A stretch of 64,000 nt of DNA from Desulfoscipio sp. XC116 (GTDB taxonomy: Bacteria > Bacillota > Desulfotomaculia > Desulfotomaculales > Desulfallaceae), in the NCBI RefSeq assembly GCF_039851975.1, contig NZ_CP156660.1:2981035-3045034 (forward strand). Reading direction: 5' to 3'. Positions 1 through 19,064 of this stretch are shown piece after piece (the first letter of the stretch is position 1; each line of letters starts with the position of its first letter). The position numbers were made by a program, and so were the translations under genes. The notes beneath the pieces are model-generated. The model ran no database searches. It was not told the origin of the DNA and saw only the letters and a program-made list of their open reading frames with translations.

Positions 1-809
1 CCGGTAAGACCACGCTGCTTAAAACACTGGGAGGGATATTACCATCTATATCGGGCTCAATAATCGAAGGTTATCATGTTAATATTGGTTATTATGAGCA
101 GGAGCAGAAACATCTGACGGGCGATAAACAGGTTATTAACGAACTGTGGGATGAATTTCCCCAATTTGATGAACAGACCGTGCGTTCTATTTTAGGAAGT
201 TTTTTATTTAGCGGAGAAGATGTCTTAAAATACGTAATTGACTTAAGCGGCGGTGAAAAAGCCAGGCTTGCCCTGGCTAAGCTTATGTGCCAAAAGGCTA
301 ATTTTTTAATGCTGGACGAGCCCACCAGTCATTTGGACATATTGGGCAACGAAGCCATGGAAGAGGCGTTACTGCAATACCCGGGCACATTACTATTTGT
401 TTCTCATGACCGCTACTTTATAAACAAAATAGCCACCCGGATCATTGAGCTGTCCCCGGAGGGCGTAAACAATTATTTGGGTAATTTCGATGATTATCAA
501 AACAAAAAAGCCGTCGAATTTAAAAACGAGCGGCACGATAATGAGAACGACCAAATCAGTGATACTAAAAAGGATTATTTTGAGCGCAAGGAAATACAGC
601 GCAAACAGCGCAAAAAACAACGCCGTACGGAGGAACTGGAAAAACTAATCAACGACACGGAATCGAACATTGGCCATTTGGAACAGCAGCTATTTTTGCC
701 GGAAGTATATAACGATCATGAATCCTACCGGCAGAAAAGCTCCGCGCTGGAAAAACTTCGCACAAAACTGGAGAACTACATGGACGAGTGGTTGGAGCTA
801 TCCGGATAA
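1..809 (+). CDS. ABC-F type ATP-binding protein, 3' part only
   Basis: The reading frame is open from the window edge (frame of base 3), so the start lies outside. What is visible is the second nucleotide-binding domain and C-terminal tail of an ABC-F protein: a Walker A remnant GKTTLLK at the edge, signature LSGGEKARLALAKL, Walker B FLMLDEPTSHLD and the H-loop SHDRYF. A Lys/Glu-rich segment rich in predicted coiled coil follows. ABC-F proteins have no membrane part; they act on the ribosome E site as translation factors or antibiotic-resistance proteins. I cannot tell a resistance factor from a housekeeping factor (Uup/EttA-like) without the N-terminal half and the inter-domain linker. Confidence 0.93.
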   Translation, partial: GKTTLLKTLGGILPSISGSIIEGYHVNIGYYEQEQKHLTGDKQVINELWDEFPQFDEQTVRSILGSFLFSGEDVLKYVIDLSGGEKARLALAKLMCQKANFLMLDEPTSHLDILGNEAMEEALLQYPGTLLFVSHDRYFINKIATRIIELSPEGVNNYLGNFDDYQNKKAVEFKNERHDNENDQISDTKKDYFERKEIQRKQRKKQRRTEELEKLINDTESNIGHLEQQLFLPEVYNDHESYRQKSSALEKLRTKLENYMDEWLELSG

Positions 810-941
810 TGCTTATTATGTGTGTTCGAAAAGGCAAACTCCGGTGCCGGTCAGGAGAGGATCTCGTGCGGACTTTTCGAACAGGCTTTTATTGGGAGAC
901 TCGGCTCAAAACGCACTAAAAATTAAAAGGATAAACTTAGC

Positions 942-1577
942 TTAGCCTTTTAAGATCGCAAGCAGCTCGGACCATGTATCAACAATGAAATCCGGGCTGC
1001 AAGCCTGTAATTCTCCACGAGAGGCCATCCCCCAGCATACTCCTATGGTAGTCACCCCGGCGTTTATGCCGGACTCTATATCATAATAACTGTCACCTAT
1101 AAATACCGACTGCTCCGGATTCGCCCCGAATTTATCCAAACCCCGCAACACGGGCTCAGCGTGGGGTTTGGGTTTCTCCACATCCTCCAAAGTAACCAGC
1201 TGATCCAGGTAGTGACCCAAGCCGGCGACGGCAATACCGCGCTCCGCCATCATCCGTCGCTTGGAGGTCACCACACCCATACCTCTGACCAGCGGTCTTA
1301 TTTCAGCCAACGCTTCCAACGCCCCGGGGAAAATTTTTATATAATGGTCATGTATCGTCAGCTGGTGATTTATATAACTATCAAATAGTTCCTGCCATCT
1401 TTCCCTGCCAAATTGCCGACAGGCATCGCGCAGGGGCAAACCCACTGTTTTCATCACCGCACCATCTTCCCAGGGGATGCTCATTTGATTAAATACATGA
1501 TAAAACGTGGCCTCAATAAGCGGCAGCGAATCCAGCAAAGTACCGTCAAGATCAAACAGCACGTAATCCTTAAGCAT
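942..1577 (-). CDS. HAD-family hydrolase, PpaX/phosphoglycolate phosphatase-like
   Basis: This 211-residue protein has all four HAD motifs: DLDGT (nucleophile D9 and D11), VTSK (T104/S105), a KPKP lysine motif at 135-138, and GDSYYDIESG (D162, D166). A helical cap domain sits between motifs I and II, as in subfamily IA enzymes such as PpaX pyrophosphatase and Gph. The cytoplasmic substrate is probably a small phosphomonoester or pyrophosphate; the sequence does not settle it. The ATG is preceded by AAGGAGAA about seven bases upstream. It converges on the ABC-F gene, with 132 bp between the stops. The family call is secure, the exact substrate is not. Confidence 0.9.
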   Translation of the reverse strand: MLKDYVLFDLDGTLLDSLPLIEATFYHVFNQMSIPWEDGAVMKTVGLPLRDACRQFGRERWQELFDSYINHQLTIHDHYIKIFPGALEALAEIRPLVRGMGVVTSKRRMMAERGIAVAGLGHYLDQLVTLEDVEKPKPHAEPVLRGLDKFGANPEQSVFIGDSYYDIESGINAGVTTIGVCWGMASRGELQACSPDFIVDTWSELLAILKG

Positions 1578-1697
1578 GCAGCATTCTCCTTACTGTGTCA
1601 AAAAGTTTTACTCTAACCAGAGTTTATATTATATCAAAACACACCTTGTAATCGCTACTACCTGAGAGTAGAAGACTAAATTTCACCACAAAAAATC

Positions 1698-1723
1698 ATC
1701 ATAACCTTTGGTTCCTTGTCCCT
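1698..1723. repeat. 26-bp direct repeat, left copy
   Basis: The 26 bases are identical, in the same orientation, to 11211-11236. The repeat contains the small palindrome AACCTTTGGTT followed by CCTTGTCCCT. Its right half shares GGTTCCTTG with the REP palindromes nearby, so it may be either an attachment-site duplication or a REP-derived dispersed repeat. Confidence 0.75.
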
Positions 1724-1728
1724 TAGCT

Positions 1729-1920
1729 TTAAGCGGCATAATTGTTTGGCTTCAATAATCGCATTGCTGAGTTCAGGGAAAGTTCGTCCAGCACATTTTT
1801 CATATCCCGCACTCCCTGACGTACTCTGCTCAGGTCCATTCCATTAACAGTGGCGCCTGCTAAAACCGTAATGAATGGTCCAAAGGGAATGTTGGATATT
1901 TTTCTCTTGGTCATATTCAT
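1729..1920 (-). CDS. Small hypothetical protein, possibly a decayed fragment
   Basis: The 63-residue frame begins with two ATGs (1920 and 1914) behind an AGAAAGGAA ribosome site. I do not recognise it with confidence. The segment around ISNIPFGPF..VLAGATVNG resembles the first strand pair of flavin reductase-like proteins, but the residues that follow do not continue that fold, which suggests a remnant fused to unrelated sequence. It sits between a dispersed 26-bp repeat and a pair of REP palindromes, in DNA that has clearly been disturbed. It may be non-functional. Confidence 0.35.
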   Translation of the reverse strand: MNMTKRKISNIPFGPFITVLAGATVNGMDLSRVRQGVRDMKNVLDELSLNSAMRLLKPNNYAA

Positions 1921-1964
1921 TTTCCTTTCTAAATCTAATTTAATTCCTTTTCATTGATTCACAA

Positions 1965-2011
1965 GTCAGGGGACGGTTCCCTGACTCCAAGTCAGGGGAC
2001 GGTTCCCTGAC
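1965..2011. repeat. Tandem pair of REP palindromes
   Basis: Two identical 21-bp imperfect palindromes (GTCAGGG-gacggtt-CCCTGAC) lie at 1965-1985 and 1991-2011, separated by five bases. They abut the stop codon of the small HTH gene. A related copy lies in opposite orientation at 2872-2887, on the far side of the transposase. This is the usual arrangement of REP sequences around a RAYT gene, and the RAYT HUH nuclease would be expected to act on such hairpins. Confidence 0.85.
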
Positions 2012-2266
2012 TCATCTTTTAACCCTTTGAACAATATTCCTGTTAACACCCAAAATTGCAGTTATTTGCCTGGTTGAAAGATTGGAATTATCTTTAAGGT
2101 ACCCAATCAGCCCATTTCTATTGTCTTTATTTATTAGCCAATCCTTTAGATGCACAGTTTTATCTTCCTTCAGAACTCTCTCAATATGCTTTATTGCCCG
2201 GGCTTCAGATTTTATGGTTTTATCCGTTGCTTTTTCTTCATTGATATCTATAAACTCTTCTGTCAC
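2012..2266 (-). CDS. HTH protein translationally coupled to RAYT transposase
   Basis: This 84-residue protein starts with GTG, and the start overlaps the transposase stop in the sequence GTGA, with AGGAGAG just upstream, so it is probably translationally coupled. The C-terminal part (STRQITAILGVNRNIVQRVKR) is a typical helix-turn-helix, and the N-terminal half is charged and helical. In many Firmicute RAYTs a similar HTH region forms the C-terminus of the transposase itself, so this may be the split-off DNA-binding domain that recognises REP palindromes. Because the upstream transposase carries a nonsense codon, this frame could be translated alone or be part of a dead element. Confidence 0.6.
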   Translation of the reverse strand: MTEEFIDINEEKATDKTIKSEARAIKHIERVLKEDKTVHLKDWLINKDNRNGLIGYLKDNSNLSTRQITAILGVNRNIVQRVKR

Positions 2267-2814
2267 CTGCTCTCTCCTGAAAATATGACAAACTGTTTGA
2301 TTGCCTCTTCCAGGTTTTTCGAAAACATTTTCAGTATAAATTCCCTGCTTGTTAAACCTGCGCCTATATTTTCTTTGTTTACATATTCATTATAACTGCT
2401 CCAACGATACCCAACCGGCTCCTTTACCATTTTTACCTTTACCGGATTATTGTGTATATACCTGACAGCAGCCATTAGATACCTTTCATCATTTATCGGC
2501 TCGCTCCTAAACCTATCCTGAAACAAATAGCATATTCTCTCGTATAGCTTATTGAAGTAATACACATAGCTTACGCCTATTCTTTTCATAGCCCTGTCTA
2601 TCTGGTCTGTCCCTTCTTTTATAAGCAGGTGCACATGATTATCCATCAGACAGTATGCCAGAATTGAGTACTCCTTTTCCCTGCCTTTTTCCTGTAAAAT
2701 ATCTATAAATCTCTTTCTGTCTTAATCACAGAGAAAAATTTCTCTTTTTTCATTACCCCTTACCATAACGTGATATATCCCAGTTTTGCTGAGTTTTCGA
2801 CTCACTCTTGGCAC
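2263..2814 (-). pseudogene. RAYT (REP-associated tyrosine transposase), nonsense-mutated
   Basis: Reading from a GTG at 2814, the frame gives the standard RAYT N-terminus (PRVSRKLSKTGIYHVMVRGN), then hits one in-frame TAA at 2722-2724 where the family has a Glu codon (a single-base change), and continues in the same frame to 2263. The downstream part has the HUH metal motif NHVHLL, a Y1-transposase core and HNNPVK. Intact RAYTs are single-strand endonucleases related to IS200/IS605 TnpA. The second half could still be translated from the ATG at 2646, but it would lack the first strand of the fold, so I call it a pseudogene. Confidence 0.85.
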
Positions 2815-2827
2815 TATTTCTCAATCC

Positions 2828-3292
<465 letters not shown>

Positions 3293-3323
3293 CTAATAAA
3301 TCGTAAACCAATCTTTCTATCTC

Positions 3324-3572
3324 CTAGTCAAGATATTCCATGGTTGTATTAAAGGCAGCCCTTTGGGTTTTACCCGGCGTGGCAAAGTGATCTTGTATCT
3401 TTTTGGTTCCGCGTGACCGAGCGGTATCAACCAAAAGGCCTATCTCATTGTCGTTTAGTTTCTTTAACCTTACGATTGCCCGGGCTTCCATTTCGTAAAG
3501 CATACCTTCCCGGAAGGACTGACCGAAAAGAGCAAAGTGCGCGGCCGCAAGGCCGATGAATTTACCGGCCAT
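3324..3572 (-). CDS. Small hypothetical protein downstream of nucleotidyltransferase
   Basis: I do not recognise this 82-residue protein. It is mixed in charge, mostly predicted helical, with no cysteine pair and no membrane segment. It starts 20 bases after the nucleotidyltransferase stop on the same strand with no clear ribosome site, which fits a two-gene transcript. A paired small protein next to a minimal nucleotidyltransferase recalls MNT-based toxin-antitoxin modules, but I see no HEPN R-x4-6-H motif in it, so the role stays open. Confidence 0.5.
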   Translation of the reverse strand: MAGKFIGLAAAHFALFGQSFREGMLYEMEARAIVRLKKLNDNEIGLLVDTARSRGTKKIQDHFATPGKTQRAAFNTTMEYLD

Positions 3573-3591
3573 TTTTATTGAATCACGACGG

Positions 3592-4278
3592 CTAACTATT
3601 AATAATCACCTCCAGGTATCGGTCGCTATTATTGACAGGCATGTGCCCGACATGCCCCTTAATTACTCTCAGCATGTTCCTTACAATTTGTAGTAACCGC
3701 TGCTCATCATCGGCATCAACATTCCCAAGTGTCTCGTTTATCCTTTCGTGATAGGTTCGAGTTGAATAGTTCCCTTTAAGAATCTGTCCAATAACGATAA
3801 GATCCCGCACGCACTTGCGTAGTTGTTCGATTCTTGTATCTTGTCCCTCATATAAGTCCAGATCCTCCAGCTCAAGTTCAACATTTTCCAACATGTTAAG
3901 TATTCCGTTCAAAGCAAGGGGTGCGTGACCGTCTACAATTTCGCTTTCACCAACAATTATGCCGGTGGCCAGGGCGAAATGCACATGAGGATCCATTAAT
4001 CGTAAATCGCGCAGCCCCTTAGCAGAAATAACCCGAGCATCTACGTCTTTGCCTACCACCTGGGACAAATCTTGCTCCAGCCTGATTTGCTTAGACCAGG
4101 GCCATTGTTGTGCTGTTACGATAATAATATCATAATCACTGTCGTCGTTAGCGCACCCGCCTACACGGGAGCCGTAACACACAATAGCTTTTGTTTCTGG
4201 AACGGCAGCGTGTACAGATGCTAATACTTGGGGCCACAGTGGATCAATGTTAATCAGTTTAGTAATTGCATGTTCCAT
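3592..4278 (-). CDS. Nucleotidyltransferase-domain protein
   Basis: The N-terminal domain has the polymerase-beta nucleotidyltransferase signature G36-S37-x10-D48-x-D50 and a likely third carboxylate at D80. These enzymes transfer NMP from NTP to proteins, RNA or small molecules such as aminoglycosides. The C-terminal half (about 110-228) is helical. The ATG at 4278 is preferred over the GTG at 4284 because AAAGGGGGT then lies six to seven bases upstream. The last codons (Ile-Ile-Asn-Ser-stop) overlap a 17-bp sequence that resembles the cassette inverted repeat. The gene lies next to the XRE regulator and may be part of the same accessory module. Confidence 0.75.
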   Translation of the reverse strand: MEHAITKLINIDPLWPQVLASVHAAVPETKAIVCYGSRVGGCANDDSDYDIIIVTAQQWPWSKQIRLEQDLSQVVGKDVDARVISAKGLRDLRLMDPHVHFALATGIIVGESEIVDGHAPLALNGILNMLENVELELEDLDLYEGQDTRIEQLRKCVRDLIVIGQILKGNYSTRTYHERINETLGNVDADDEQRLLQIVRNMLRVIKGHVGHMPVNNSDRYLEVIINS

Positions 4279-4514
4279 GGGCACACCCCCTTTAAGAATG
4301 ATTATAACACGGCTCCAATGTTTTTACTATTATTACCACTCTCAATCTTGATGTAAAAGGAAACGGTAGTTTTAAGCTTTTGCGCCATGGCCTTTCTTGT
4401 GAAGCTTTTTTTCTTACGAAGATTTATTAATTTTTTTCTCATTCTCATTATGCCAAACGCCTCAGTCCTGGGACAATTCGTACCATATCAATAGTTTTAC
4501 AACCATTAATCACC

Positions 4515-4570
4515 CATTATGTCCCCTGGAAGCATGCAGATATTTACAATGGGACATAATGTGCTACACT
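4515..4570 (+). promoter_or_regulatory. Promoter and paired operator of the XRE regulator gene
   Basis: The 11-bp sequence CATTATGTCCC at 4515-4525 has a perfect inverted copy GGGACATAATG at 4551-4561. The second copy fills the spacer between a -35-like TTTACA (4543-4548) and a -10-like TACACT (4565-4570), 16 bp apart. The placement implies that a protein bound there blocks RNA polymerase; the XRE protein encoded just downstream is the natural candidate. The element names are inferred from sequence only. Confidence 0.6.
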
Positions 4571-4588
4571 TTTACAAGGGGTGACAAT

Positions 4589-4987
4589 ATGGATTTAACG
4601 GGACGCCTTAAATCATTAAGAGAAGAGAAATCTCTAACTCAAGAAGGTTTAGCGAAGACGTTCAAAATTTCAAGATCAGCTGTAACAAAATATGAAGCCG
4701 GTGAACGTCGTCCAGACCCAGTAACTCTCCAAACATTCGCAGATTATTATGATGTTAGCGTCGACTACCTTCTTGGACGGACTGATATTCGCGAAACCCC
4801 GGAGAAGATCATCGAATCATCCCTACAAGACGACCCCAAGCTTTTGGAATTCTGGTCTGAGCTTAAAAGCCGGAAAGACCTGCAACTCCTATTTAAACAG
4901 GTGATACCCATGACCCCAGAAGGAGTAAAAAAGGTGATCAGGATAATTAAAGCACTTGAAGAAGAACCCTTAGATAAGGGGAGCTGA
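4589..4987 (+). CDS. XRE-family transcriptional repressor
   Basis: This 132-residue protein has an N-terminal Cro/C1-type helix-turn-helix (residues 5-60: LTQEGLAKTF..SRSAVTKYEAGER) followed by a short helical tail for dimerisation. The ATG at 4589 is preferred to the ATG at 4559 because AAGGGGTGA precedes it and the -10 element lies only a few bases before the upstream ATG. The inverted operator copies upstream suggest autorepression. It is typical of regulators in integrated elements and stands immediately before the STAND/GT cassette, separated from it by a terminator. Confidence 0.88.
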   Translation: MDLTGRLKSLREEKSLTQEGLAKTFKISRSAVTKYEAGERRPDPVTLQTFADYYDVSVDYLLGRTDIRETPEKIIESSLQDDPKLLEFWSELKSRKDLQLLFKQVIPMTPEGVKKVIRIIKALEEEPLDKGS

Positions 4988-5022
4988 AAGCTACTGCCAA
5001 ATAATATGGTAGTGGCTTTCAG
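4984..5022 (+). terminator. Hairpin after the XRE gene
   Basis: A 16-bp stem (CTGAAAGCTACTGCCA paired with TGGTAGTGGCTTTCAG, two mismatches or wobbles) closes a 7-base loop and overlaps the XRE stop codon. The U-tract is weak (TTCATTT). It would insulate the downstream cassette from the XRE transcript. Confidence 0.6.
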
Positions 5023-5099
5023 TTCATTTAGAAACATTCGACATTATTTTTCATTATTCTTCTTTTCGATAAAAAAAATGAACAAATGCCCGAATACAA

Positions 5100-5174
5100 C
5101 ATACTCCCCTGCCACGCAGCTTAGAGTATGTCAAACGATGGATAATAATCAAACCTTAATCAGTAATGATTAAG
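5100..5174 (+). promoter_or_regulatory. Inverted-repeat control region outside the cassette
   Basis: Between the XRE terminator and the left 23-bp repeat lie two short inverted repeats: CATACTC (5100-5106) with GAGTATG (5124-5130), and CTTAATC (5155-5161) with GATTAAG (5168-5174). A GATAAT hexamer (5141-5146) could be a -10 element, but I find no good -35. As the only noncoding DNA upstream of the STAND gene, this stretch should hold its promoter and operators. It lies outside the inverted repeats and would not move if the cassette flipped. Confidence 0.4.
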
Positions 5175-5199
5175 AAAATCTTAGCAGAATGAACCAATA

Positions 5200-5222
5200 A
5201 ATAAAGGATAACTATTAATTAT
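5200..5222 (+). repeat. 23-bp inverted repeat, left end of cassette (IR-L)
   Basis: This 23-bp sequence is perfectly repeated in reverse orientation at 9776-9798. It contains the near-palindrome ATAACTATTAATTAT (one mismatched pair), as expected for paired recombinase binding arms. It lies 26 bp upstream of the STAND start codon and just outside its ribosome site. Confidence 0.85.
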
Positions 5223-5248
5223 ACTTGCGTGATTTAAGGCGTGATAAG

Positions 5249-8200
5249 ATGAAATATTTACTGAAAAAGTATTGGCATAAGTTTCGGGGTATTCACGGTA
5301 GATTTGATGGAATTTTTTTTGAGGATTTGGTAATGCAAATCCTCAAAGCGGAATACCCAAAGGAAAATTGGATTAGGACGAAAAAAACATGGGATAAAAA
5401 AAGAGACTTTTTCTCTGAATTCAAGATAGATGGCAAAACGGTCCAAAAATGGGCAGAGTGCAAAAGTTATAAAGATAATCTGTCCATCAATGTGCTTGCT
5501 CCTACCTTAATTATGAGCACCCTTAATAATGTCAACGAAATATTATTTTTCTCATACAGCCCGCTCAATAAGCAGGCAAAAGAATCGCTGTCCATGTTCT
5601 CAGGGGTACATAAAAAGGTTATACGTGTTTTTGATGATGAAAAGCTGGAAGCACTCATCTTTAAGCATAAGCATAATATTGAATTTTCTTTTTTCTTTCC
5701 AAACTATATCGATAAAGAACTTAATACCGAGTCAAAAAACTATCGTGTTTATGAAACTGTTTTTTTGCCTAGGCATAACTATGAATACCGTCTGCAGGAA
5801 CTGCGAAGTCAGAAGCTCAAAGTAAACGAAATCATCATTATTAATATTTACATCGAGAATTTTTCAATTGAGAAAAAGATTATTCAAATAAGCGTTAATC
5901 TTAAAAATGATGATGGGTATCGTTATTTTGAGAGCGCAAACCGGCAATTGCAAATTAACAAAACAATAGTTCTTGATGGCGCGACTTTGTTTTCATACCA
6001 AATCCCATTAAAAATTATCACATATGCAGCCACAATCTATTTACCGGAAATTACAATCCAGTGTGAACATCAGAAGAATAGTCTCTTCGGTAGTTTCCAG
6101 TGCAGTTGGCTACTTGATACTCCATTCATTGGTTATCAAAATTTATTGGACGAAGTGGACAGCCGATTCGCGTCAAAAACTTATTCCGTGGTAACCCTTC
6201 ATGGATGTAGTGGCGTTGGGAAGACGCGTCTGGCCCAGGAGATTCACAACCGTTATCTGTTGAAGAATGAAAAATGCATCGTTATCAATACAGAACAGAA
6301 CAATGGAATTTGTAGAAACTGGTTGATGAAGGTCATGGCCAGGCTCTATACACTACCTTTTGTAAACATGGAAGCCCTGACTCTAAAAGAAAACTTGGAA
6401 ACGCCAGATAATATTGCCATGATGATTCTTTATAATCAAGATTTTGAGATTGAGAAAAACATTCATCGCGTAGCACTATCATTGTTAGAAGCACAGAGCG
6501 AGCACCGCTATTTACTTGTGTTCGATAATGTGCAGAATCTTGACGACTTGTCCATCAAAATACTTCATGAAATGATGAATCTTTATGAAGCATATCATGA
6601 TGTTAATTTACTGCTGACCTTTAATATGGATTATTTAATAAAAGATAGTTTGGCACGCAATTTCTTTTCCCGTATTATGAATTTGCGTAAGGATTATAAA
6701 GATAATTTTCTCCTACAGCAAATAAATGGATTCACAACCCAGCAAGCTAATTCGTATGTAAAACAATGCTTCGGAGTGTCAACAGATACTTGCAATCTCA
6801 GTGCAATAGCTTATGATGCAGCGATAAATCGTATTGTTGCTATTGCACAAAATCGGCCTTTGTTTTTGGAGCAGATACTTTTAAAGCTATGCGAAGACAG
6901 TATTATTAAAAACATTGATGATTATTTTTATATTGTTAATAACGAGCGTTTCTACGAATCTTTAGAGAAGCTGCCATATCAATTGAACGAATATTTTGAG
7001 CTGCGCTGGCAATTTGCGAAAAAACAAACGGAAAAACAATTTTCTGCCATGAAGTCTATTATACAATTATTGTGTTTTTTTGAAAGCATATCACGGGAGA
7101 TACTTGACGAAATGGACTTTGATGAATTGGCTTTGGATGCATTATTTAGCCTAGGATTTATTCGCCAAAATGAAAAAATCGTATTTTATCACCAATTGAT
7201 TGGTAAGTTTTTTTCAAATAAGTTTCCTTACCTCAACGCCGCTCTGCTAAGAGATTGTTTGGTTGTGTTAAAGAAAGCTAATCGGCGCAATATCTACCCG
7301 GCACAATATTTTATCGCAGCAGCGCAATCAGGACATCTGGATCAAGGTAAAATCGCATGGGCTGTTGAGCAGCTACTGAAAAACAAAATACCGGGGCAGA
7401 TACAAAAGAAGTTCAACGATGAGCTTTATAGCGCCATTGCCGACCAAGACATGTTTCAACGTTTAAATGCTGTTGATATAGTCGGCTTTTATGGAGCATA
7501 CTGCTATCACCTGCAAGCAAAGGTTTCCTATTTGGCTGCAATTGAAAAGTATGAATTGATCTATAAACGCTATTTGCTAGAGCATTCTTTTTTCTATACT
7601 GCCGGGGATGAATATATGCTGTTTATTAAAGAATATTTGAATATGCTGCTGGTGCTTCACCGTAACGACCAGGTCATTGTGCTCGCCAAAGAGGTTCTGG
7701 AGCTAGTCAGTAAACTAAGGTTCAAATATAGAAACGGAGCAAAACGAGCACAAGCAATACTGTTAAACAGGCAACATATTGCTTATAATCGCACAGATAT
7801 TCCCGACAACCTTCATCCATTTTCTGCGCTTGCTAAAGAGGGCATTGATAAGTCCTATCAAATCGCGCAGGCCATTCATGACATTGAATTAATTATACAA
7901 AATCTCATTGATTACGGTTATCTGTATTACTGCAGTAATAAATATAACGACAAAACAATTTATTATTGGGAGAAAGCCTACCTTTTGTGGGATAAAAATC
8001 GTAAAAATGTTCCCGCTTGGGAAAGCGGAGTCTACTACCATAAAGCGTTAGCTGCAACCATGCAGCATAATTATGCGCAAGCCTATGAGTTGATTCGAAA
8101 TGTAGAAATATTCCACAAGCGAAATTTGTACGTTCCCTATTTCTACACAAAATCTAAGATTCTTAAAGCTGTGGTCTCACTCATGACAGGAAAACCCTTT

Positions 8201-8620
8201 GACGAAGTGTTGCACCTAACCAATGAAGCTGAGAACCTTTGCCAGGAGAACAACAGTCCGGGTGGGTTTGCGGTTTGCTCTTATATAAGAGCAAAGGCCT
8301 ACGAGTTACTATCAGAAGAAAAAAAAACAGCTTGTCGGTTCTATCAGAAAGCGCTGACTCAGTTCATTAGAAAAAGTGAAAATGATAAAGAAGAAGAACG
8401 AGCAACGATTTATTTTTTAGATATATCAAGCGCACTCAGAAGTATGGGTGATGAAGTTGATGAGGAAACGATCAACATGGTAAAGAGTTCTCCATTGCGC
8501 AAAAAGATTAACGAAATAAAAAAAATGCGGTGTAAAGATTGGAAAACTTATTTGAGCAATCGTTCTGCAGAAAGCCCGTTGTGCAATCAAAAAAAAACCA
8601 TCAACTACCCTTGCCCATAA
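5249..8620 (+). CDS. Mrr-type nuclease / STAND NTPase / helical-repeat protein, candidate antiphage sensor
   Basis: This 1123-residue protein has three parts. Residues about 15-140 form a PD-(D/E)xK endonuclease of the Mrr type (E25, D53, E70-C-K72). Residues about 300-600 are a STAND P-loop ATPase: Walker A GCSGVGKT at 319-326, Walker B LLVFDN with D426, a sensor-like LLLTFN, and NRPLF. The rest is helical, with spaced aromatic pairs as in TPR-like sensor arrays. This order matches antiviral STAND (Avs) proteins, in which the C-terminal array binds a phage protein and tetramerisation activates the nuclease. The ATG at 5249 follows TAAGGCGTGA; the TTG at 5225 has no such site. The gene is AT-rich against the rest of the window. 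The architecture is clear; the defence role is inferred. Confidence 0.85.
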   Translation: MKYLLKKYWHKFRGIHGRFDGIFFEDLVMQILKAEYPKENWIRTKKTWDKKRDFFSEFKIDGKTVQKWAECKSYKDNLSINVLAPTLIMSTLNNVNEILFFSYSPLNKQAKESLSMFSGVHKKVIRVFDDEKLEALIFKHKHNIEFSFFFPNYIDKELNTESKNYRVYETVFLPRHNYEYRLQELRSQKLKVNEIIIINIYIENFSIEKKIIQISVNLKNDDGYRYFESANRQLQINKTIVLDGATLFSYQIPLKIITYAATIYLPEITIQCEHQKNSLFGSFQCSWLLDTPFIGYQNLLDEVDSRFASKTYSVVTLHGCSGVGKTRLAQEIHNRYLLKNEKCIVINTEQNNGICRNWLMKVMARLYTLPFVNMEALTLKENLETPDNIAMMILYNQDFEIEKNIHRVALSLLEAQSEHRYLLVFDNVQNLDDLSIKILHEMMNLYEAYHDVNLLLTFNMDYLIKDSLARNFFSRIMNLRKDYKDNFLLQQINGFTTQQANSYVKQCFGVSTDTCNLSAIAYDAAINRIVAIAQNRPLFLEQILLKLCEDSIIKNIDDYFYIVNNERFYESLEKLPYQLNEYFELRWQFAKKQTEKQFSAMKSIIQLLCFFESISREILDEMDFDELALDALFSLGFIRQNEKIVFYHQLIGKFFSNKFPYLNAALLRDCLVVLKKANRRNIYPAQYFIAAAQSGHLDQGKIAWAVEQLLKNKIPGQIQKKFNDELYSAIADQDMFQRLNAVDIVGFYGAYCYHLQAKVSYLAAIEKYELIYKRYLLEHSFFYTAGDEYMLFIKEYLNMLLVLHRNDQVIVLAKEVLELVSKLRFKYRNGAKRAQAILLNRQHIAYNRTDIPDNLHPFSALAKEGIDKSYQIAQAIHDIELIIQNLIDYGYLYYCSNKYNDKTIYYWEKAYLLWDKNRKNVPAWESGVYYHKALAATMQHNYAQAYELIRNVEIFHKRNLYVPYFYTKSKILKAVVSLMTGKPFDEVLHLTNEAENLCQENNSPGGFAVCSYIRAKAYELLSEEKKTACRFYQKALTQFIRKSENDKEEERATIYFLDISSALRSMGDEVDEETINMVKSSPLRKKINEIKKMRCKDWKTYLSNRSAESPLCNQKKTINYPCP

Positions 8621-8662
8621 TTACCGGTTATAAATAAAATCTCTAAATAAACCAGAAAACCT

Positions 8663-9760
8663 TTATATTTCCGTTATACGAAGTATATTGGCGTTTCTAT
8701 CAATGACTATATCCCAACTGCAATCTCTTAAATACTTCCAGATAGTATTGGTTTGAAGAGCGCGGAAATCATCAACAAAATACAGAATCGGAAAACGCAT
8801 CTGTCGGATATTACTGTCCAGAAGTTCATAAAGTGGAATATGGTCGGCATCACGGACTTTGTATGGGCGATTGTACACATCAGAGAAACTAATGTTAAGC
8901 AAATCCTCAAAAAGCTCATAATGCCAACGTTTATCGGCGATGGTTGTAAAGTCAATCAAGTAGTATTCTTTGTGTAAAAAAACGCACTGACTGATAAAAT
9001 AATCGGCAGCAATTTTAAAATAATGATCCATATCAATCTTAATTTTACCGGAGCAAACCGCCATGTATTGACCTTTAGTGTCACCCTTTAAATGGTTTGA
9101 CATCCCGCTATTGTATGTAGAGTTGCCTTTGTGAAACACTAAAGAGTCGTTGATGCACCATGTACTAAAGCCCTTTTCCTTCAATCTCAGGCATAAATCA
9201 ATATCAGAATATGAATGCATCAGTTTTTCATTAAAGCCTCCTATATCAATAAATAACTTTTTTCTGATAAGTGAGCTGGCTGCACAAGCAGCTTGTGCGC
9301 AAAAAGATTGATCAGCTAGATGAAAATGTTTGTTTCTACCTCGAAAAGGATGTGGTGAATTAAATTCGGTAAATCCTATACCGAAATCAATAATCGTTTC
9401 ATCATAGGGATTTAGTAGCTTGGAGGATGCGTAGCCAATACCCTCCTGCTGTTGGTAAAAGGAAGTCAGCGCCTGAAACCAGCCTTTCGTATAAACGGTA
9501 TCTGCGTCACAAAAAATGACATACTGTCCTTTTGCCTGCTCTACGCCAAGGTGAATCGCTTTTGGATAAAATAATTCATAATTAACTTTTATCAATCGAC
9601 ACTGGGCATAGGGGAGCTCAATGCTATGCTCTTTTGGATTGGAATTGTTTGCTACAATAATAATTTCCACCCCATCAGGGATTGTGGAGATTAAACTGTC
9701 CAAACATGCATGTAGCAAGATTTGGTTGCTGTGATAAGGTATAATAATGGAATATATCAC
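8663..9760 (-). CDS. GT2 family glycosyltransferase
   Basis: This 365-residue protein begins with the GT-A fold of family 2 transferases: SIIIPYHSN at the N-terminus, nucleotide-sugar/metal motif DAD at 85-87, IGGFNE at 173-178 and SDIDLCLRL at 185-193. No membrane segments are evident, so it is probably cytoplasmic or peripheral, adding a sugar to a surface glycan. Residues after about 230 are not a known accessory domain to me. The GTG start at 9760 has GGGGGTGAG upstream. The gene converges on the STAND gene (42 bp between stops) and follows the recombinase gene, with the right 23-bp repeat between them. Its presence beside a nuclease sensor is unusual. Confidence 0.85.
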   Translation of the reverse strand: MIYSIIIPYHSNQILLHACLDSLISTIPDGVEIIIVANNSNPKEHSIELPYAQCRLIKVNYELFYPKAIHLGVEQAKGQYVIFCDADTVYTKGWFQALTSFYQQQEGIGYASSKLLNPYDETIIDFGIGFTEFNSPHPFRGRNKHFHLADQSFCAQAACAASSLIRKKLFIDIGGFNEKLMHSYSDIDLCLRLKEKGFSTWCINDSLVFHKGNSTYNSGMSNHLKGDTKGQYMAVCSGKIKIDMDHYFKIAADYFISQCVFLHKEYYLIDFTTIADKRWHYELFEDLLNISFSDVYNRPYKVRDADHIPLYELLDSNIRQMRFPILYFVDDFRALQTNTIWKYLRDCSWDIVIDRNANILRITEI

Positions 9761-9775
9761 AAATGCTCACCCCCG

Positions 9776-9798
9776 ATAATTAATAGTTATCCTTTATT
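9776..9798 (-). repeat. 23-bp inverted repeat, right end of cassette (IR-R)
   Basis: This is the exact reverse complement of 5200-5222. It encodes the last residues of the recombinase (Asn-Lys-Gly, then TAA) and ends one base before the ribosome site of the glycosyltransferase gene. Inversion between the repeats would leave the recombinase reading frame unchanged. Confidence 0.85.
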
Positions 9799-10713
9799 GA
9801 TAACCACTTTATTGCGGGGGTGTTTAGAGGCTAATATGCATTTTTGTTTATTAGAGGTAACATGAGTATATATCTGAGTTGTTACTATTGAGCTGTGTCC
9901 TAATAAGCGCTGGATATATCGGATATCAACATCCTCTTCCAACAGCAACGTTGCAAAGGTATGCCGGAACATATGTGGCGTAATATGTGTTGCGACTCCG
10001 GCCATGTACACATATTTGTTAATCATAAACCTGACAGATTGTTCGGAAAGTCGGTTATTAAGGCGGTTAATAAAGAAAAAATCTCTCTCGTTCATTTTAT
10101 CTAGAAAAGCATTTTTATAATTCCTTAGAGCTAGAAGAACATCTTTATTTACAATCTGGACAATCCGCTCCCTTGAGCCTTTGCCATAAATTCTTATGAA
10201 TCCGTCCGACATATTAACATCATCGACGGTCAATGAACAAAGTTCCGACACCCTAATGCCGGTGGCAAAAAGCAATTCAAGTACAGCTATATCGCGTAAA
10301 ACAGTCTTAAATTTGAAAGCAGTATTATTTTGGCTCAATTCTTTATAAACCGTTGAAAGAACAGTCTGAATGGTGGTTAAAGGTATTGTCCTGGGCAACA
10401 GGAAGGGTTCCTGAAACTTTACTTTAATTTTTGAAAATGGATCTTTCTGTATAACTTCATCGTATTCAAGATAATTGCAAAACGCTTTGAGACTGGCAAG
10501 CTTGCGTTTAATAGTTTTAGGCTTGTATGTTTTATGAAGATAAGTAATATAGTTGGACAGGTTTATCTTATTCAAATTGCCGTCTGTTCCTTTCATGTAG
10601 TTTAAAAACTGTTGAAAATCAATCTTGTATGCTTTTAATGTCTTTTGGCTTAAATTTTTCTGATATTTGCATATTTCAAGGTAATTAATTACTAACTTTT
10701 CCAATTGCAGCAT
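9787..10713 (-). CDS. Tyrosine recombinase (XerC/D-like integrase)
   Basis: The 308-residue protein has an N-terminal SAM-like core-binding domain (about 5-90) and a catalytic domain with the full residue set: R154 (ATGIRVSELC), K178 (YGKGSRER), H247-x-x-R250 (HMFRH), H273 (LGHSS) and nucleophile Y282 (QIYTH). Such enzymes cut and rejoin DNA at short paired sites for integration, dimer resolution or inversion. The ATG at 10713 has AGAGGTGA seven bases upstream. The stop lies inside the 23-bp repeat, so the recombinase directly adjoins its probable site. It could act as invertase of the STAND/GT cassette, integrase of the larger island, or both. Confidence 0.93.
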   Translation of the reverse strand: MLQLEKLVINYLEICKYQKNLSQKTLKAYKIDFQQFLNYMKGTDGNLNKINLSNYITYLHKTYKPKTIKRKLASLKAFCNYLEYDEVIQKDPFSKIKVKFQEPFLLPRTIPLTTIQTVLSTVYKELSQNNTAFKFKTVLRDIAVLELLFATGIRVSELCSLTVDDVNMSDGFIRIYGKGSRERIVQIVNKDVLLALRNYKNAFLDKMNERDFFFINRLNNRLSEQSVRFMINKYVYMAGVATHITPHMFRHTFATLLLEEDVDIRYIQRLLGHSSIVTTQIYTHVTSNKQKCILASKHPRNKVVINKG

Positions 10714-10819
10714 TCATAATTCACCTCTAAATATATTGTCATATGCCATTATGAATGATCAGTATGATTTTGTCGAATGTTGCCGCCAACAATGCGGTAG
10801 TAATTTATGAAGTGTCCAG

Positions 10820-11173
10820 ATGAATCTAGGTACGATCAAACAGATGCCGAGGCATAAAATAATTAAAGCCCTGCTTGACAAAAGAATTAAGCAGGAGGAT
10901 ATCGTGACCGCCTTTAAAATCCGCATTAGGGAAGGAGACCTTATGGCGGACGCCCTGGGTTTTGTTTATAAGCGTTCCGACGGCTGTTATTTCATAGTCA
11001 CGGATAAAAATCTATCCCCCACAGTACGGGAGGAGATAATCAATCACAAAATATTCCAAATACTCGTGTACTTGCCAAAAATGCCTTATACGGTTGGGTT
11101 AAACATTATTCAAAGTTCCATTGAGAGACAAGCATTTGCTCGTGAGGTGGCAGTTAGCAATGAAGAGGATTGA
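10820..11173 (+). CDS. Hypothetical protein, degenerate ImmA/IrrE-like
   Basis: The 117-residue protein has a short basic helical N-terminus, then a stretch that resembles ImmA/IrrE metallopeptidases: a strand (YFIVTDKNLS), a helix NHKIFQIL where the family has HExxH, and IERQAFAREVA, which matches the third-ligand helix ERxAxxFAxE. The Glu and second His of the zinc motif are missing, so it would not be a protease. ImmA proteins normally remove XRE repressors in mobile elements, and an XRE gene lies 6 kb away on the other side of the cassette. The relationship is tentative. Confidence 0.45.
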   Translation: MNLGTIKQMPRHKIIKALLDKRIKQEDIVTAFKIRIREGDLMADALGFVYKRSDGCYFIVTDKNLSPTVREEIINHKIFQILVYLPKMPYTVGLNIIQSSIERQAFAREVAVSNEED

Positions 11174-11210
11174 GGTTATGAGGATTTTGCACTATTAAAA
11201 CTAATATTTT

Positions 11211-11236
11211 ATCATAACCTTTGGTTCCTTGTCCCT
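11211..11236. repeat. 26-bp direct repeat, right copy
   Basis: This is identical to 1698-1723 and in the same orientation. It ends the AT-rich accessory region and runs into the promoter of the next gene, whose -10 TATAAT lies at 11243-11248. Confidence 0.75.
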
Positions 11237-11248
11237 CCGTGTTATAAT
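11221..11248 (+). promoter_or_regulatory. Promoter of the ylbF-like gene
   Basis: A perfect -10 TATAAT (11243-11248) is 16 bp from TTGGTT (11221-11226), a weak -35 that falls inside the 26-bp repeat. Confidence 0.55.
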
Positions 11249-11323
11249 ACACTTATGTCGTGCTGGATTATTATGGACCAGGATTGATACTAATTATATA
11301 TATTGGAGGAGGAGGATCAACCG

Positions 11324-11668
11324 ATGTCCAAGGACGTTTTTGAAAAAGCTTCCGCATTGGGTAAGAGCATTGTTGAATCTGAAGAGTTTAAGGAAATACA
11401 AAAGAAGGAAAATGAAATGATTGGAGATCCCAATGCCCAGCAATTGCTAAAAAAATTTCATGAGCTTCAAAAACTACAAAAAGAAAAACAAAAAAAAGGG
11501 GAAGCGTTAACTCCTGATGAAGCCAGGGAATTCGAACAGGTACAGCTTAAGATAGTGGAGAACAAGGCCATTAAAACCTTTTCAGAAGCCCAGGAAAAAT
11601 TTCAAAACATGATGAATGAAATTATGAAAATTATCAAGGAAGCCGGTGTAAACAAGATAAAAGAATAA
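11324..11668 (+). CDS. YlbF/YmcA-family protein
   Basis: This 114-residue, Lys/Glu-rich, entirely helical protein matches the YlbF/YmcA (Com_YlbF) family. In Bacillus, members of that family form a complex that works with RNase Y in mRNA maturation and affects competence, sporulation and biofilm formation. The ATG at 11324 is chosen because GGAGGAGGA precedes it; an upstream TTG frame would start inside that site. A strong terminator follows directly, so it is a single-gene unit with its own promoter. Confidence 0.8.
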   Translation: MSKDVFEKASALGKSIVESEEFKEIQKKENEMIGDPNAQQLLKKFHELQKLQKEKQKKGEALTPDEAREFEQVQLKIVENKAIKTFSEAQEKFQNMMNEIMKIIKEAGVNKIKE

Positions 11669-11695
11669 GGCGGAATCATTCCGCCTTATTTTACT
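11664..11695 (+). terminator. Intrinsic terminator of ylbF-like gene
   Basis: The perfect 13-bp stem AATAAGGCGGAAT/ATTCCGCCTTATT has a one-base centre, is followed by TTTT-like sequence, and overlaps the stop codon. Confidence 0.85.
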
Positions 11696-11801
11696 AGATA
11701 CCGGAGCAAACTACAAAAAGGCAGCTGCTCGCATTTAATCAGCAACAGCTGCCTAAGCTAATTTTCAATAATTTATCAACTAAAAACCTTAAGGCCAAAA
11801 A

Positions 11802-13313
11802 CTACTTGACCAGAGCCGGTATACCCAATATGGGCCATACCGTCAAGGCAAATACCGCCACCATAATCAGCGCCAGAATGGTGAATGGAACACCCACCAA
11901 AAAGAACTGACCGGTGGTAAATTGTTTGGCTTGGTATGCAATGGCGTTGGGTGCCGCACCCACCAGCAGCATATAAGGCAGACCTGCCGCGGCCAAGCAT
12001 GTATACAAGATCAGGTAAGAGTTAACACCCAGGTACTCGGCCATTACCAGGGCCACCGGCATTGTAATGGCAATGGCCGCCACGTTCATAATAAAGTTGG
12101 TCATAATGATCACCAAAAAGGCTATAGCCACCACGAAAACCAACCAGTTGGCATTTTGGAACATAGTCAGCCAGTGTATGGCCATCCACTCGGCGGCCCC
12201 GGTAACCCACAAACAAGTACCGATACTCATAGCACCGCCAAACAAAAGCACGATATTCCAAGGGACGCTCTTTTCCAGATCTTCCACCGTAAACAGCTTA
12301 GCCATAAACATAATAATTGCTGCCATCAATATGGGGATACTCCTGTTCATATCTGCAATGGCCGGAATAAACTGCTGGGTTGCCAATATAGCCACCACCG
12401 CCACAGCCAGTGCAATAACAAAGATTTCCTTCCCCGTCATGGGACCCATTTGCGAATTTACTTCATCCACTTTCTTTTTCAAACCATCGATTTTGTCCTG
12501 TTCGGGTTTGAAAAACACATAGCTCAGCAGAAACCAGGTTATTAATACCATGATAATACCCAAAGGTGCCATGGCTATGGAATATTCGAGGAAACCAATA
12601 TCAATACTGGTGAATTCTTTGAAGAATCCCAATGCCACCGGCCCACGAGCCGCACCCAGCAGGGTGATTAAGCTGCCGGCACCGGCGGAATACGCCATAC
12701 CGATAAACATAGCCCTGCCAAAATTCGTGGGTACATCCTCTTTACCGTACATACTTATAATGACCAGCATCAGCGGGAACATGGTGGCAGCCACTGCCGT
12801 GTGGGCCATCACCAGCGTCAATGCCAAGGTCACCAGAAACACACCCAGCAGTATTTTACGGGAATCCTCACCCACCACGGAGAGCATTTTAAAAGCCAGA
12901 CGGGTTGTCACACCCGCTTTGGTAAAAGCTACGCCCAGCAGCAGCGAACCTAAAATGAACAGCACCGATGGATCCATAAATACGGCAAAAGCTTCGACAG
13001 CCGGCCGAATCATAAATGCCGCCTGCATAACGCCGATAGTAAGACTGGTTACACCAATGGGTATTACTTCAAACACCCACCATACTCCGGCCAACAGAAA
13101 AAGTCCGATGGACAACTGCGCCTCCCGCGATAATTCAAATGCCTTACCCGTAGGATCTACGGCCGGCGGGAGTTGGGGCAAGAAATAAAAAAGTGCAAAT
13201 AAACCGATACCCAATACTGCAAAAGCTATTCTTTTCCACTCGCCTGATAAGTCATTAATTTGTTGTTCGGCATTTACGGAAGCGCTGATAGCTGCTTGTG
13301 TGGTATTACTCAT
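11802..13313 (-). CDS. DASS/SLC13 sodium-coupled anion transporter
   Basis: The 503-residue protein has about a dozen hydrophobic segments and both re-entrant substrate/sodium motifs of the divalent anion:sodium symporter family in diverged form: AHTAVAATMFP in the first half, and FIMNVAA with GAAPNAIAY in the second. Members carry dicarboxylates or sulfate into the cell. In a presumed sulfate-reducing or syntrophic anaerobe either substrate is plausible and the sequence does not decide. It is monocistronic, with a CRP/FNR-type palindrome 70-84 bp upstream of the start. Confidence 0.9.
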   Translation of the reverse strand: MSNTTQAAISASVNAEQQINDLSGEWKRIAFAVLGIGLFALFYFLPQLPPAVDPTGKAFELSREAQLSIGLFLLAGVWWVFEVIPIGVTSLTIGVMQAAFMIRPAVEAFAVFMDPSVLFILGSLLLGVAFTKAGVTTRLAFKMLSVVGEDSRKILLGVFLVTLALTLVMAHTAVAATMFPLMLVIISMYGKEDVPTNFGRAMFIGMAYSAGAGSLITLLGAARGPVALGFFKEFTSIDIGFLEYSIAMAPLGIIMVLITWFLLSYVFFKPEQDKIDGLKKKVDEVNSQMGPMTGKEIFVIALAVAVVAILATQQFIPAIADMNRSIPILMAAIIMFMAKLFTVEDLEKSVPWNIVLLFGGAMSIGTCLWVTGAAEWMAIHWLTMFQNANWLVFVVAIAFLVIIMTNFIMNVAAIAITMPVALVMAEYLGVNSYLILYTCLAAAGLPYMLLVGAAPNAIAYQAKQFTTGQFFLVGVPFTILALIMVAVFALTVWPILGIPALVK

Positions 13314-13381
13314 TTAACCACCCCCCATAATAATTAACCGAGGCTTAAAGCCGGTTAGTTAAATAATTAACAATTAGCGGT

Positions 13382-13397
13382 AGTGAAATATATCACT
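13382..13397 (-). promoter_or_regulatory. CRP/FNR-type palindrome upstream of DASS transporter gene
   Basis: AGTGA-N6-TCACT matches the TGTGA-N6-TCACA pattern bound by CRP/FNR-superfamily regulators in eight of ten positions. It lies in the 339-bp noncoding stretch before the transporter gene. A second inverted repeat (AACCG.GGCTT/AAGCC.GGTT, about 13337-13359) lies closer to the gene. I saw no other feature in this stretch. Confidence 0.45.
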
Positions 13398-13633
13398 ATA
13401 TAAGCTGCAAACCCATGCTATTTTCTTCTAAATCCCTCCTCACCATGTGGTTTATTCTTAGTTGCTACTTTTAATCAATAGCACTATTTTAGATTTGTGC
13501 ATTATGTAACTTACTAAGATTATATTTAATTCTCATTCTTTTTGCAACTACTTTTTGTCACTACATCGAAAAGTTTTAAAAAAAATTTCTGATAATTGGG
13601 CTTATGGAAATACGTGTTGTGAACTAATTAACA

Positions 13634-13675
13634 TATCTTTGCCCGTGCGGATTTAAACCCGCATGGACAAAGATA
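13634..13675 (-). terminator. Hairpin at the end of tex
   Basis: A long imperfect stem joins TATCTTTG at 13634 to CAAAGATA at 13675, with an inner TGCGG/CCGCA stem. It includes the Tex stop codon. Confidence 0.6.
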
Positions 13676-15800
13676 CTCTATGACGCGCCACATCCACCGC
13701 AAGCACGCGAACGGCAACCACATCCCCCACCGATATCACATCCAGCGGATGGCGTACATAACCTTCGGTCAGCTCCGAAATATGCACCAGACCGTCATTT
13801 TTTACGCCAATGTCCACAAAAGCACCGAAATCAACTACGTTGCGCACGGTACCTTTCAGCAGCATGCCTGCCCGGAGATCTTCTATACTCAACACATCAA
13901 ACCGAAAAACCGGCGGGGGCAGTTCTTCGCGCGGGTCACGTCCGGGGCGCATCAGGCTTTCTATTATATCCCGCAAAGTCGGCACACCGGCACCCAGCCG
14001 TGCCGCCAGGTCATCGATATCTAACCGGGCCAGCCTGGAACGCAGGTCCGAGCGGCCAATGTCCACAGTTTTAACACCCAGCAAGTCCAATAATTTAGCT
14101 GTTATCGGGTAGGATTCGGGATGAATGGGCGTGGCGTCAAGCAAATTCTCCCCGCCACTGATGCGCAGAAATCCCACGCACTGTTCAAAGGTTTTAGAGC
14201 CCAACCGGGGTACAAGGGCCAGCTGGCGGCGGTTCAGAAAACGACCGTTTTGCTCCCGGTGCCGCACTATATTTTCCGCCACCACGGCATTGATTCCGGC
14301 TACATAGCCAAGCAGCGATGCCGACGCAGTGTTTAAATCGACGCCCACATAGTTAACAGCCGATTCCACTACTTTAGCCAGACTTTCATTCAATTGTTTC
14401 GGCGCCACATCATGCTGATACTGGCCCACACCAACGGCCCGGGGCTCAATTTTCACCAGCTCGGCCAGCGGGTCCTGCAGCCGCCGCGCGATGGATACAG
14501 CGCTGCGGGCCGATACGTCCAAATCGGGAAACTCCCTGGCAGCCAATTCGGAAGCTGAATAAACGCTGGCCCCGGCCTCACTGACAATAGTATAAACCAG
14601 CCCCGACTGTTCTTGTTGTATAAAACCGGCTACGAACTGCTCGGTTTCCCTGGAAGCGGTGCCATTGCCAATGGCAATAACCTGCACGGCATACTGTTTG
14701 ACCACCCGGGCCAATTCGGCCTCGGCTTCAGCTATCCTTTTTTGCGGCGGCGTGGGGTATATTACACCCACCTCTAAAAGTTTTCCCGTTTCATCCACTG
14801 CGGCCCATTTACACCCCGTCCGGTAGGCGGGATCGAGCGCCAGTACCATTACATCCCGCACCGGAGGCTGCATAAGCAGACTGCGCAAGTTGCGGGCAAA
14901 AACCTGCACGGCACGGGATTCGGCTTCCTCCGTCAATTCACTGCGCACATCACGTTCCACAGCCGGCGCCACCAGCCTTTTATAAGCATCCGCCACGGCC
15001 TTTTGCACCAAGCCCAAAGTTACCGATTCACGTTTTATAAAACGGCGGTACAGCCAGTCAAGCACCGCATCACTATCCACCTGTACCGTCACCTTGAGAT
15101 ACTCCTCCCGTTCACCCCGGTTAATAGCCAGCACCCGGTGCGGCACTACTTTGCGTATCGGCTCCTGGTAATCATAATACATCTGATAGACCGATTCTGC
15201 CTGGACATTCCGAGCCCGGGTCGCCAACAAGCCCTGCCGCCGGGTATAATCCCGCACCCAGCCGCGCACATCAGGATCATCGGCCACTTGTTCGGCCACT
15301 ATATCCATCGCCCCCTGCAGGGCGTCCTCCACGGTTAATACCGTCTCCGATAAATATGCGCCGGCTTCGGTCTCCGGGTTACCGGCCTGCGGAAGGGAGA
15401 TAAGATACTCCGCCAGCGGTGCCAATCCGCGCTCCCGGGCCACCCCGGCCCGGGTTTTACGTTTCTGCCGGTAGGGTCGATAGATATCCTCTACCTCGGT
15501 AAGTTTAACGGCGCTCATTATCCTGTCCCGGAGTTCCTCAGTCAGCTTGCCCTGCTCATCAATAATCCTCAGCACCTCAGCCTTGCGCTGTTCCAGGTGG
15601 CGGTGAAACTTGACCAGCTCTTCTATGCGCCGTATCTGCACCTCGTCAAGTTCGCCGGTTGCCTCCTTACGATACCGGGCAATAAAAGGCACGGTGTTGC
15701 CTTCTTCCAACAGATGTACGGTACTCTCCACTTTATGCCGGGGAATATCGGCTTCCCGGGCCACTATTTGCAGAATATCGTTTAGCAATGCGTTTGGCAT
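13653..15800 (-). CDS. tex: Tex, S1-domain RNA-binding transcription accessory protein
   Basis: The 715-residue protein has the complete Tex order: N-terminal helical bundle (GNTVPFIARYRKEATG), central YqgF/RNase H-like fold (VLALDPAYRTGCKWAAVD), helix-hairpin-helix region (LNTASASLLGYVAGI, RLGSKTFEQCVGFLRI), and a C-terminal S1 domain (GTVRNVVDFGAFVDIGVKNDGLVHISEL). Tex is a cytoplasmic nucleic-acid-binding protein implicated in transcription and RNA handling. The ATG at 15800 is chosen because GGGGGAGG precedes it; the in-frame TTG at 15821 lies within that site. It is transcribed divergently from the ferritin-like gene. Confidence 0.96.
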   Translation of the reverse strand: MPNALLNDILQIVAREADIPRHKVESTVHLLEEGNTVPFIARYRKEATGELDEVQIRRIEELVKFHRHLEQRKAEVLRIIDEQGKLTEELRDRIMSAVKLTEVEDIYRPYRQKRKTRAGVARERGLAPLAEYLISLPQAGNPETEAGAYLSETVLTVEDALQGAMDIVAEQVADDPDVRGWVRDYTRRQGLLATRARNVQAESVYQMYYDYQEPIRKVVPHRVLAINRGEREEYLKVTVQVDSDAVLDWLYRRFIKRESVTLGLVQKAVADAYKRLVAPAVERDVRSELTEEAESRAVQVFARNLRSLLMQPPVRDVMVLALDPAYRTGCKWAAVDETGKLLEVGVIYPTPPQKRIAEAEAELARVVKQYAVQVIAIGNGTASRETEQFVAGFIQQEQSGLVYTIVSEAGASVYSASELAAREFPDLDVSARSAVSIARRLQDPLAELVKIEPRAVGVGQYQHDVAPKQLNESLAKVVESAVNYVGVDLNTASASLLGYVAGINAVVAENIVRHREQNGRFLNRRQLALVPRLGSKTFEQCVGFLRISGGENLLDATPIHPESYPITAKLLDLLGVKTVDIGRSDLRSRLARLDIDDLAARLGAGVPTLRDIIESLMRPGRDPREELPPPVFRFDVLSIEDLRAGMLLKGTVRNVVDFGAFVDIGVKNDGLVHISELTEGYVRHPLDVISVGDVVAVRVLAVDVARHRVSLSMRV

Positions 15801-15821
15801 AAGGTCTTTTTCCTCCCCCAA

Positions 15822-19062: not shown

Positions 19063-19064
19063 AT

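Follow-up and report, generated by a model that had tools for sequence, protein, structure and literature searches.

A candidate invertible and exchangeable two-gene cassette beside a XerD-like recombinase in Desulfoscipio

Why would a short, perfect inverted repeat enclose exactly two convergent genes of unrelated function and reach into the end of a tyrosine recombinase gene? This is the arrangement at positions 5200 to 9798 of the window, by which we mean the whole 64,000-nucleotide stretch of Desulfoscipio sp. XC116 DNA analysed here. We consider it probable (roughly 0.8) that the segment is an invertible, exchangeable two-arm gene cassette, of which the arm on the promoter side would be expressed. 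The argument draws on the following features.

4559..4987, + strand: XRE-family regulator gene (HTH_3, 8.9e-15), upstream of the outer flank
about 5021..5199, + strand: outer flank, where the active arm is presumably controlled, with an inverted repeat at 5100-5130 and a palindrome at 5156-5173
5200..5222, + strand: left (outer) predicted crossover site, AATAAAGGATAACTATTAATTAT, with a perfect inverted copy at 9776-9798; family motif with spacer CTATTA
5249..8620, + strand: arm 1, STAND protein (AAA_16 1.8e-8, NB-ARC 8.8e-6, Mrr_cat 0.0096, the last of these sub-threshold)
8663..9760, - strand: arm 2, family 2 glycosyltransferase (GT2; Glycos_transf_2 6.5e-17)
9768..9822, - strand: predicted pairing region in the recombinase read-through RNA, CACCCCCG (9822-9815) with CGGGGGTG (9775-9768)
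9776..9798, - strand: right (recombinase-side) predicted crossover site, overlapping the last three codons and stop of the recombinase gene
9787..10713, - strand: XerD-like tyrosine recombinase (Pfam Phage_integrase 2.8e-44; XerD alignment; six catalytic residues)

The repeat, the recombinase and a family of sites

The anatomy described in the original prediction proved correct. The repeat is perfect for 23 bp and 96% complementary across 26 bp, and even with up to three mismatches tolerated it has just these two copies in the whole 4.26-Mb genome. It encloses the two convergent genes, each with its own ribosome site: AAGG at 5236-5239 for the STAND gene, whose best start is the ATG at 5249 (preferred over the first-listed TTG at 5225), and GGGGGTG for the glycosyltransferase gene. 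The adjoining recombinase has the complete catalytic set (R154 K178 H247 R250 H273 Y282) and the integrase fold family expected of a Xer-like tyrosine recombinase, matches XerD with an E-value of 5e-35, and has its codons NKG and stop inside the right repeat. The XRE gene, which encodes a possible regulator, has a terminator-like hairpin (4986-5020); the DNA that follows it, up to the left repeat, is non-coding and contains the palindrome TTAATCAGTAATGATTAA (5156-5173).

The surrounding ~9.7 kb of accessory DNA (window 1580-11300) lies between a HAD gene (942-1577) and a YlbF gene (11303). These two genes are direct neighbours in three relatives that lack the region, which is therefore an insertion. 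It also contains REP-associated-transposase-like ORFs at 2012-2646 and, at 2828-3196, a stretch that resembles part of a PEP-utilising enzyme domain; an Rfam search of window positions 1-20000 returned no matches.

A genome scan yielded at least 203 relatives of the window recombinase, mostly from Clostridia. The 80 that were kept (53-72% identity) are likewise mostly clostridial, with members in Treponema, Fibrobacterota and others. Relatives at 51-59% identity also occur in faecal phages (MT838418.1, MT835475.1, MT839579.1) and in two viral contigs of IMG/VR (L103, L104), which are possible vehicles. Most of the kept recombinase loci contain a site with the motif AATAAAGGATAA-YNNNNN-ATTATC, either where the recombinase gene ends (3') or some 100-350 bp upstream of its start. 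The nearest relative of all (L023, 72%) has no recognisable site at the recombinase 3' end, and its platform, formed by recombinase and flanks, appears to have decayed, as such platforms may do.

In 37 loci a second, inward-facing inverted site lies 1.65-6.9 kb away. A tyrosine recombinase that requires homology in the crossover region predicts identical spacers within a locus, and this is what we find: although partner sites were picked from their arms alone, with the spacer ignored, the 6-nt spacer is identical in 25/25 strong inverted pairs, as it is in the window pair. The spacer itself varies by locus, with identity in only 9/666 comparisons between loci (1.35%). Directly oriented partner sites, which are mostly those same near-palindromic sites read from the opposite strand, never match in their spacers. 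Sites matching at 17/19 positions or better number 123, in about 100 related loci, against 0 sites and 0 pairs in reversed and Markov-shuffled controls; the spacer covariation and the empty controls rule out a chance origin of the repeat. Judged from these comparisons, the 23-bp window repeat is a conserved crossover site of a XerD-like recombinase family. Some loci are more elaborate, with inverted repeats of 100-160 bp that each hold two or three tandem sites with differing spacers (L167, L170, L179, L181). Others have a lone extended palindromic site on the recombinase 3' side, in one copy in the sequence examined (L033, L036, L053, L066, L093, L102), and are possibly empty platforms.

The site is dif-like (GGATAA-spacer-TTAT) and the genome has other Xer-like genes, so that host XerC/XerD or another recombinase might invert the segment and the adjacent gene be incidental. 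Yet the site is tied, in a fixed position and across phyla, to the adjacent recombinase family, and although Xer-like genes are general in the genus of the window strain, that genus lacks close relatives of the window recombinase. We regard this explanation as improbable, and propose that the adjacent recombinase itself would act on the dif-like pair of inverted sites. With 6-nt spacers that are identical but inverted, such recombination would invert the 4.55-kb cassette.

Inversion and exchange among relatives

An inversion switch should occur in nature in both orientations, and among the relatives it does. The clearest case is that of two Eubacterium MAGs (L049 and L050), which share a 6.5-7-kb cassette that is inverted at 83-88% identity, with the recombinase and downstream flank collinear and the left flank of L050 missing from the MAG. 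L080 and L171 have opposite cassette orientations at the DNA level, Thoeris cassettes are found both ways round (L061 vs L164, L069 vs L099), and the cassettes of L101 and L165 are also opposed. The sample comprises one genome per species, and while MAG assemblies may be wrong, complete plasmids and isolates have the same anatomy. The assembly of the window strain holds a single cassette orientation; that the cassette can invert there too is what we infer.

Further signs come from where assemblies break. Contigs end within 130 bp beyond the site in 19/54 loci with a recombinase site, where 0.43 would be expected; the paired repeats are mostly just 16-48 bp long, yet contigs break at them. The cassette of the isolate Clostridium sp. 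HBUAS56010 was assembled as a separate contig of 3,077 bp that has the 18-bp site at either end, and the two flanking contigs also stop on the site (4/4 contig ends), as mixed orientations in the culture would predict. Three further assemblies have one inner sequence (33-50 nt) joined to both flanks, a pattern that a longer repeat could also explain. We take these breaks as indirect evidence of mixed orientations within one culture.

The matched spacers, flipped homologues and assembly breaks bear directly on an alternative already raised in the original prediction, namely that the repeat is a leader or operator common to both genes, and likewise on the idea of a chance repeat, in either case without recombination. 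Both genes do begin directly downstream of a repeat copy, which in Streptococcus plasmids contains the ribosome site, but a shared control element would leave unexplained why spacers covary within loci and differ between them, why the copies are always inverted, and why flips and contig breaks fall at the site. This alternative is contradicted on each of these counts, and we give it almost no weight. Integration of a circular cassette was also considered and is rejected, since it would leave the spacers directly oriented where the observed ones are inverted.

The predicted inversion is only part of what seems to happen at these sites. The recombinases of the Streptococcus salivarius megaplasmids NU10 and ICDC2 are 99.8% identical and their flanks collinear, but the cassettes are unrelated, and homology breaks off at both sites. 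Two Aliarcobacter plasmids likewise combine a near-identical platform with unrelated cassettes, with homology up to the sites, as do Acetobacterium L163 and L026 on a shared platform; in Eubacterium L046 and L049 homology breaks off at the recombinase-side site. That platforms so nearly alike in recombinase and flanks carry unrelated cassettes, with homology that ends at the sites, indicates that whole cassettes are also exchanged between genomes there, as read from sequence. Comparison with related genomes, which the original prediction had proposed, turned up both flipped and exchanged cassettes. In the longer term, whole cassettes would swap at the same sites at which they flip, with the recombinase and flanks serving as a docking platform. 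The platform itself is patchy, being present in 14/80, 3/19, 2/46 and 51/397 genomes of four groups (the last being sampled genomes of one family), and it also occurs on plasmids and in other phyla. In five loci of Streptococcus megaplasmids (L183-L187) the ribosome site GGTAGGAG lies inside the inverted repeat, so that the platform would provide it to every cassette.

Arm choice and cassette content

Does flipping then select which arm is expressed? Of 82 flanks, 19 (2.8 expected) have a promoter-like sequence whose -10 element is no more than about 20 bp from the site. It is always on one flank (19 loci) and never on both, where 2.2 loci with both would be expected if the flanks were independent; this exclusivity is by itself suggestive. 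A clear site-abutting promoter is absent from 22/41 loci, and on the recombinase side of several loci the site is abutted by a terminator-like hairpin instead. A sigma-70 search of the window flanks found no strong promoter on either side. In the predicted fold of the recombinase read-through RNA (MFE -32.5 kcal/mol), the GT2 ribosome site has an unpaired probability of 0.00, which rises to 0.31-0.36 at the flipped junction. Since the site would be hidden in read-through RNA and partly freed on flipping, the STAND arm is likely the active one at present.

We therefore suggest a switch in which the cassette genes, without promoters of their own and each beginning just inside a site, would depend on their surroundings: the arm toward the promoter-bearing flank would be on, and the opposite arm silent or reduced. 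In the present window orientation the STAND nuclease faces the outer flank (likely ON), while the glycosyltransferase faces the recombinase, its ribosome site hidden in the read-through RNA (likely OFF), and inversion would make expression of the two alternate. That the adjacent recombinase flips the cassette, as first proposed, is strongly supported in relatives by matched spacers, flipped homologues, assembly breaks and promoters on one flank.

Alternatively, the sites may serve exchange only, with both arms expressed from both flanks either way round and flipping a neutral by-product. The same recombinase and flanks hold unrelated cassettes with homology up to the sites, as this reading would have it; the two-gene Thoeris system divided over opposite arms also speaks for it, as does the recurrent STAND and ATP-grasp pair, which suggests partners on opposite arms. 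What speaks for a switch instead is the site-abutting promoter on one flank but never both, the terminator-like hairpins between recombinase and site in several loci, and the predicted hiding of the ribosome site in the window RNA. On balance exchange without a switch seems unlikely, though it is the rival that we take most seriously.

The contents of the cassettes give the proposed switch its context. Almost always a + block is followed by a - block, and the commonest Pfam families among 96 cassette proteins are TIR (8), AAA/STAND (8), GT2 (7), D-Ala ligase-like ATP-grasp (7), radical SAM (7) and SIR2 (6). A STAND, TIR or SIR2 protein on one arm is typically paired with a (biosynthetic) enzyme opposite. 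The pairing of STAND with GT2, of which the original prediction knew no other case, is not unique: it recurs in L064, L087 and L181 (in L181 the GT2 arm includes another large gene). Since PADLOC models were also matched by flanking genes sampled as a control, mainly as restriction-modification methylases, we claim no enrichment from PADLOC counts.

The window STAND protein, a likely immune sensor, combines a Mrr-like nuclease N-terminus (E-C-K motif), an NB-ARC/AAA ATPase and a TPR-like helical C-terminus. Its description as Avs-like may hold for architecture, in that the predicted nuclease-STAND-helical repeat layout resembles Avs4, the best Foldseek match (8dgf, E 1.5e-9) of a low-confidence AlphaFold model (pLDDT 52). 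It fails against the PADLOC models, which returned 0 families and no Avs model. A PDB sequence search with the protein gave no match, and viral relatives were found for the recombinase (2 viral contigs) but not for the STAND protein. We know of no Avs in an invertible cassette.

Four loci (L061, L069, L099, L164) contain Thoeris, with thsA and a TIR gene on opposite arms. The match to ThsA (SIR2-SLOG) has an E-value of 5e-104 for L061 and of 8e-91 for L069; L164 has SIR2_2 + STALD and TIR_2, and the L099 system was assigned because it is homologous to those of L061 and L069. In known Thoeris systems the two proteins, ThsA and TIR, work together, and the split pair argues against strict mutual exclusion of the arms: either both arms would be expressed to some level, or the split may itself be functional. 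A D-Ala ligase-like ATP-grasp protein lies opposite a STAND or other large protein in L028, L080, L083, L169, L171 and L182, and such pairs are possibly unrecognised two-gene systems. A bolder reading, which we hold to be rather doubtful, is that of an 'immune integron' run by the recombinase. Such a mobile platform would store promoterless bipartite immune cassettes, flip them so that their two halves are expressed in different cells of a single population, and swap them whole between species, the halves being a sensor/effector and an enzyme/signal-maker, as are ThsA and its TIR partner.

Relation to known switches and outlook

Inversions that select genes are familiar from the Mu G segment with Gin, the Moraxella piv pilin switch and the R64 shufflon with Rci. 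As proposed here, a flip in these systems puts either of two opposed coding regions behind a fixed promoter or start. Gin and Piv belong to other recombinase groups, whereas Rci is a tyrosine recombinase like ours. In all three the switched products are of a single kind (surface or tail proteins), and the systems are not known to include a cassette exchange platform, in contrast to the unrelated functions of the window arms and the exchange seen in the window family.

The inversions of hsdS by PsrA/CreX-type tyrosine recombinases, in which repeats in or among hsdS genes reshuffle specificity (PMC7096588, PMC4948785), share with our locus a tyrosine recombinase beside a defence locus, inverted repeats and, as proposed here, phase variation. 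In window-type cassettes, by contrast, whole genes would flip, with the repeats as their leader sites, and Pfam annotation finds no hsdS in the window cassette.

Also close are the pdif modules of Acinetobacter plasmids, each bounded by two Xer-type sites that have a short spacer and opposite orientations; the modules are swapped between plasmids (PMC13141974). Their 28-bp sites are used by host XerC/XerD, their cargo is ordinary (toxin-antitoxin or resistance genes, for example), and their inversion, demonstrated by PCR and reads, requires identical or nearly identical 6-bp spacers (PMC13141974). Modules between inverted Xer-type sites, the rule of spacer identity and module swapping are common to both. 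Unlike pdif modules, which rely on host XerCD and have no recombinase of their own, the studied loci, which were found via their recombinase, have a dedicated one adjoining the site; the cassettes are promoterless convergent arms for immune-type proteins, and the arms of the family site are unlike those given for XerC/XerD (PMC13141974).

We found no account of such a system when searching the accessible literature for invertible defence cassettes, and the segment has the look of a genetic switch that is widespread and apparently undescribed. By coupling DNA inversion to immune-type genes, it would offer a mechanism for bet-hedging a costly defence. Its genomic signature, a recombinase with a spacer-matched inverted site, is simple and can be used to look for further candidate defence genes together with the enzymes that partner them, and PCR or existing reads allow a direct test of phase variation in defence.
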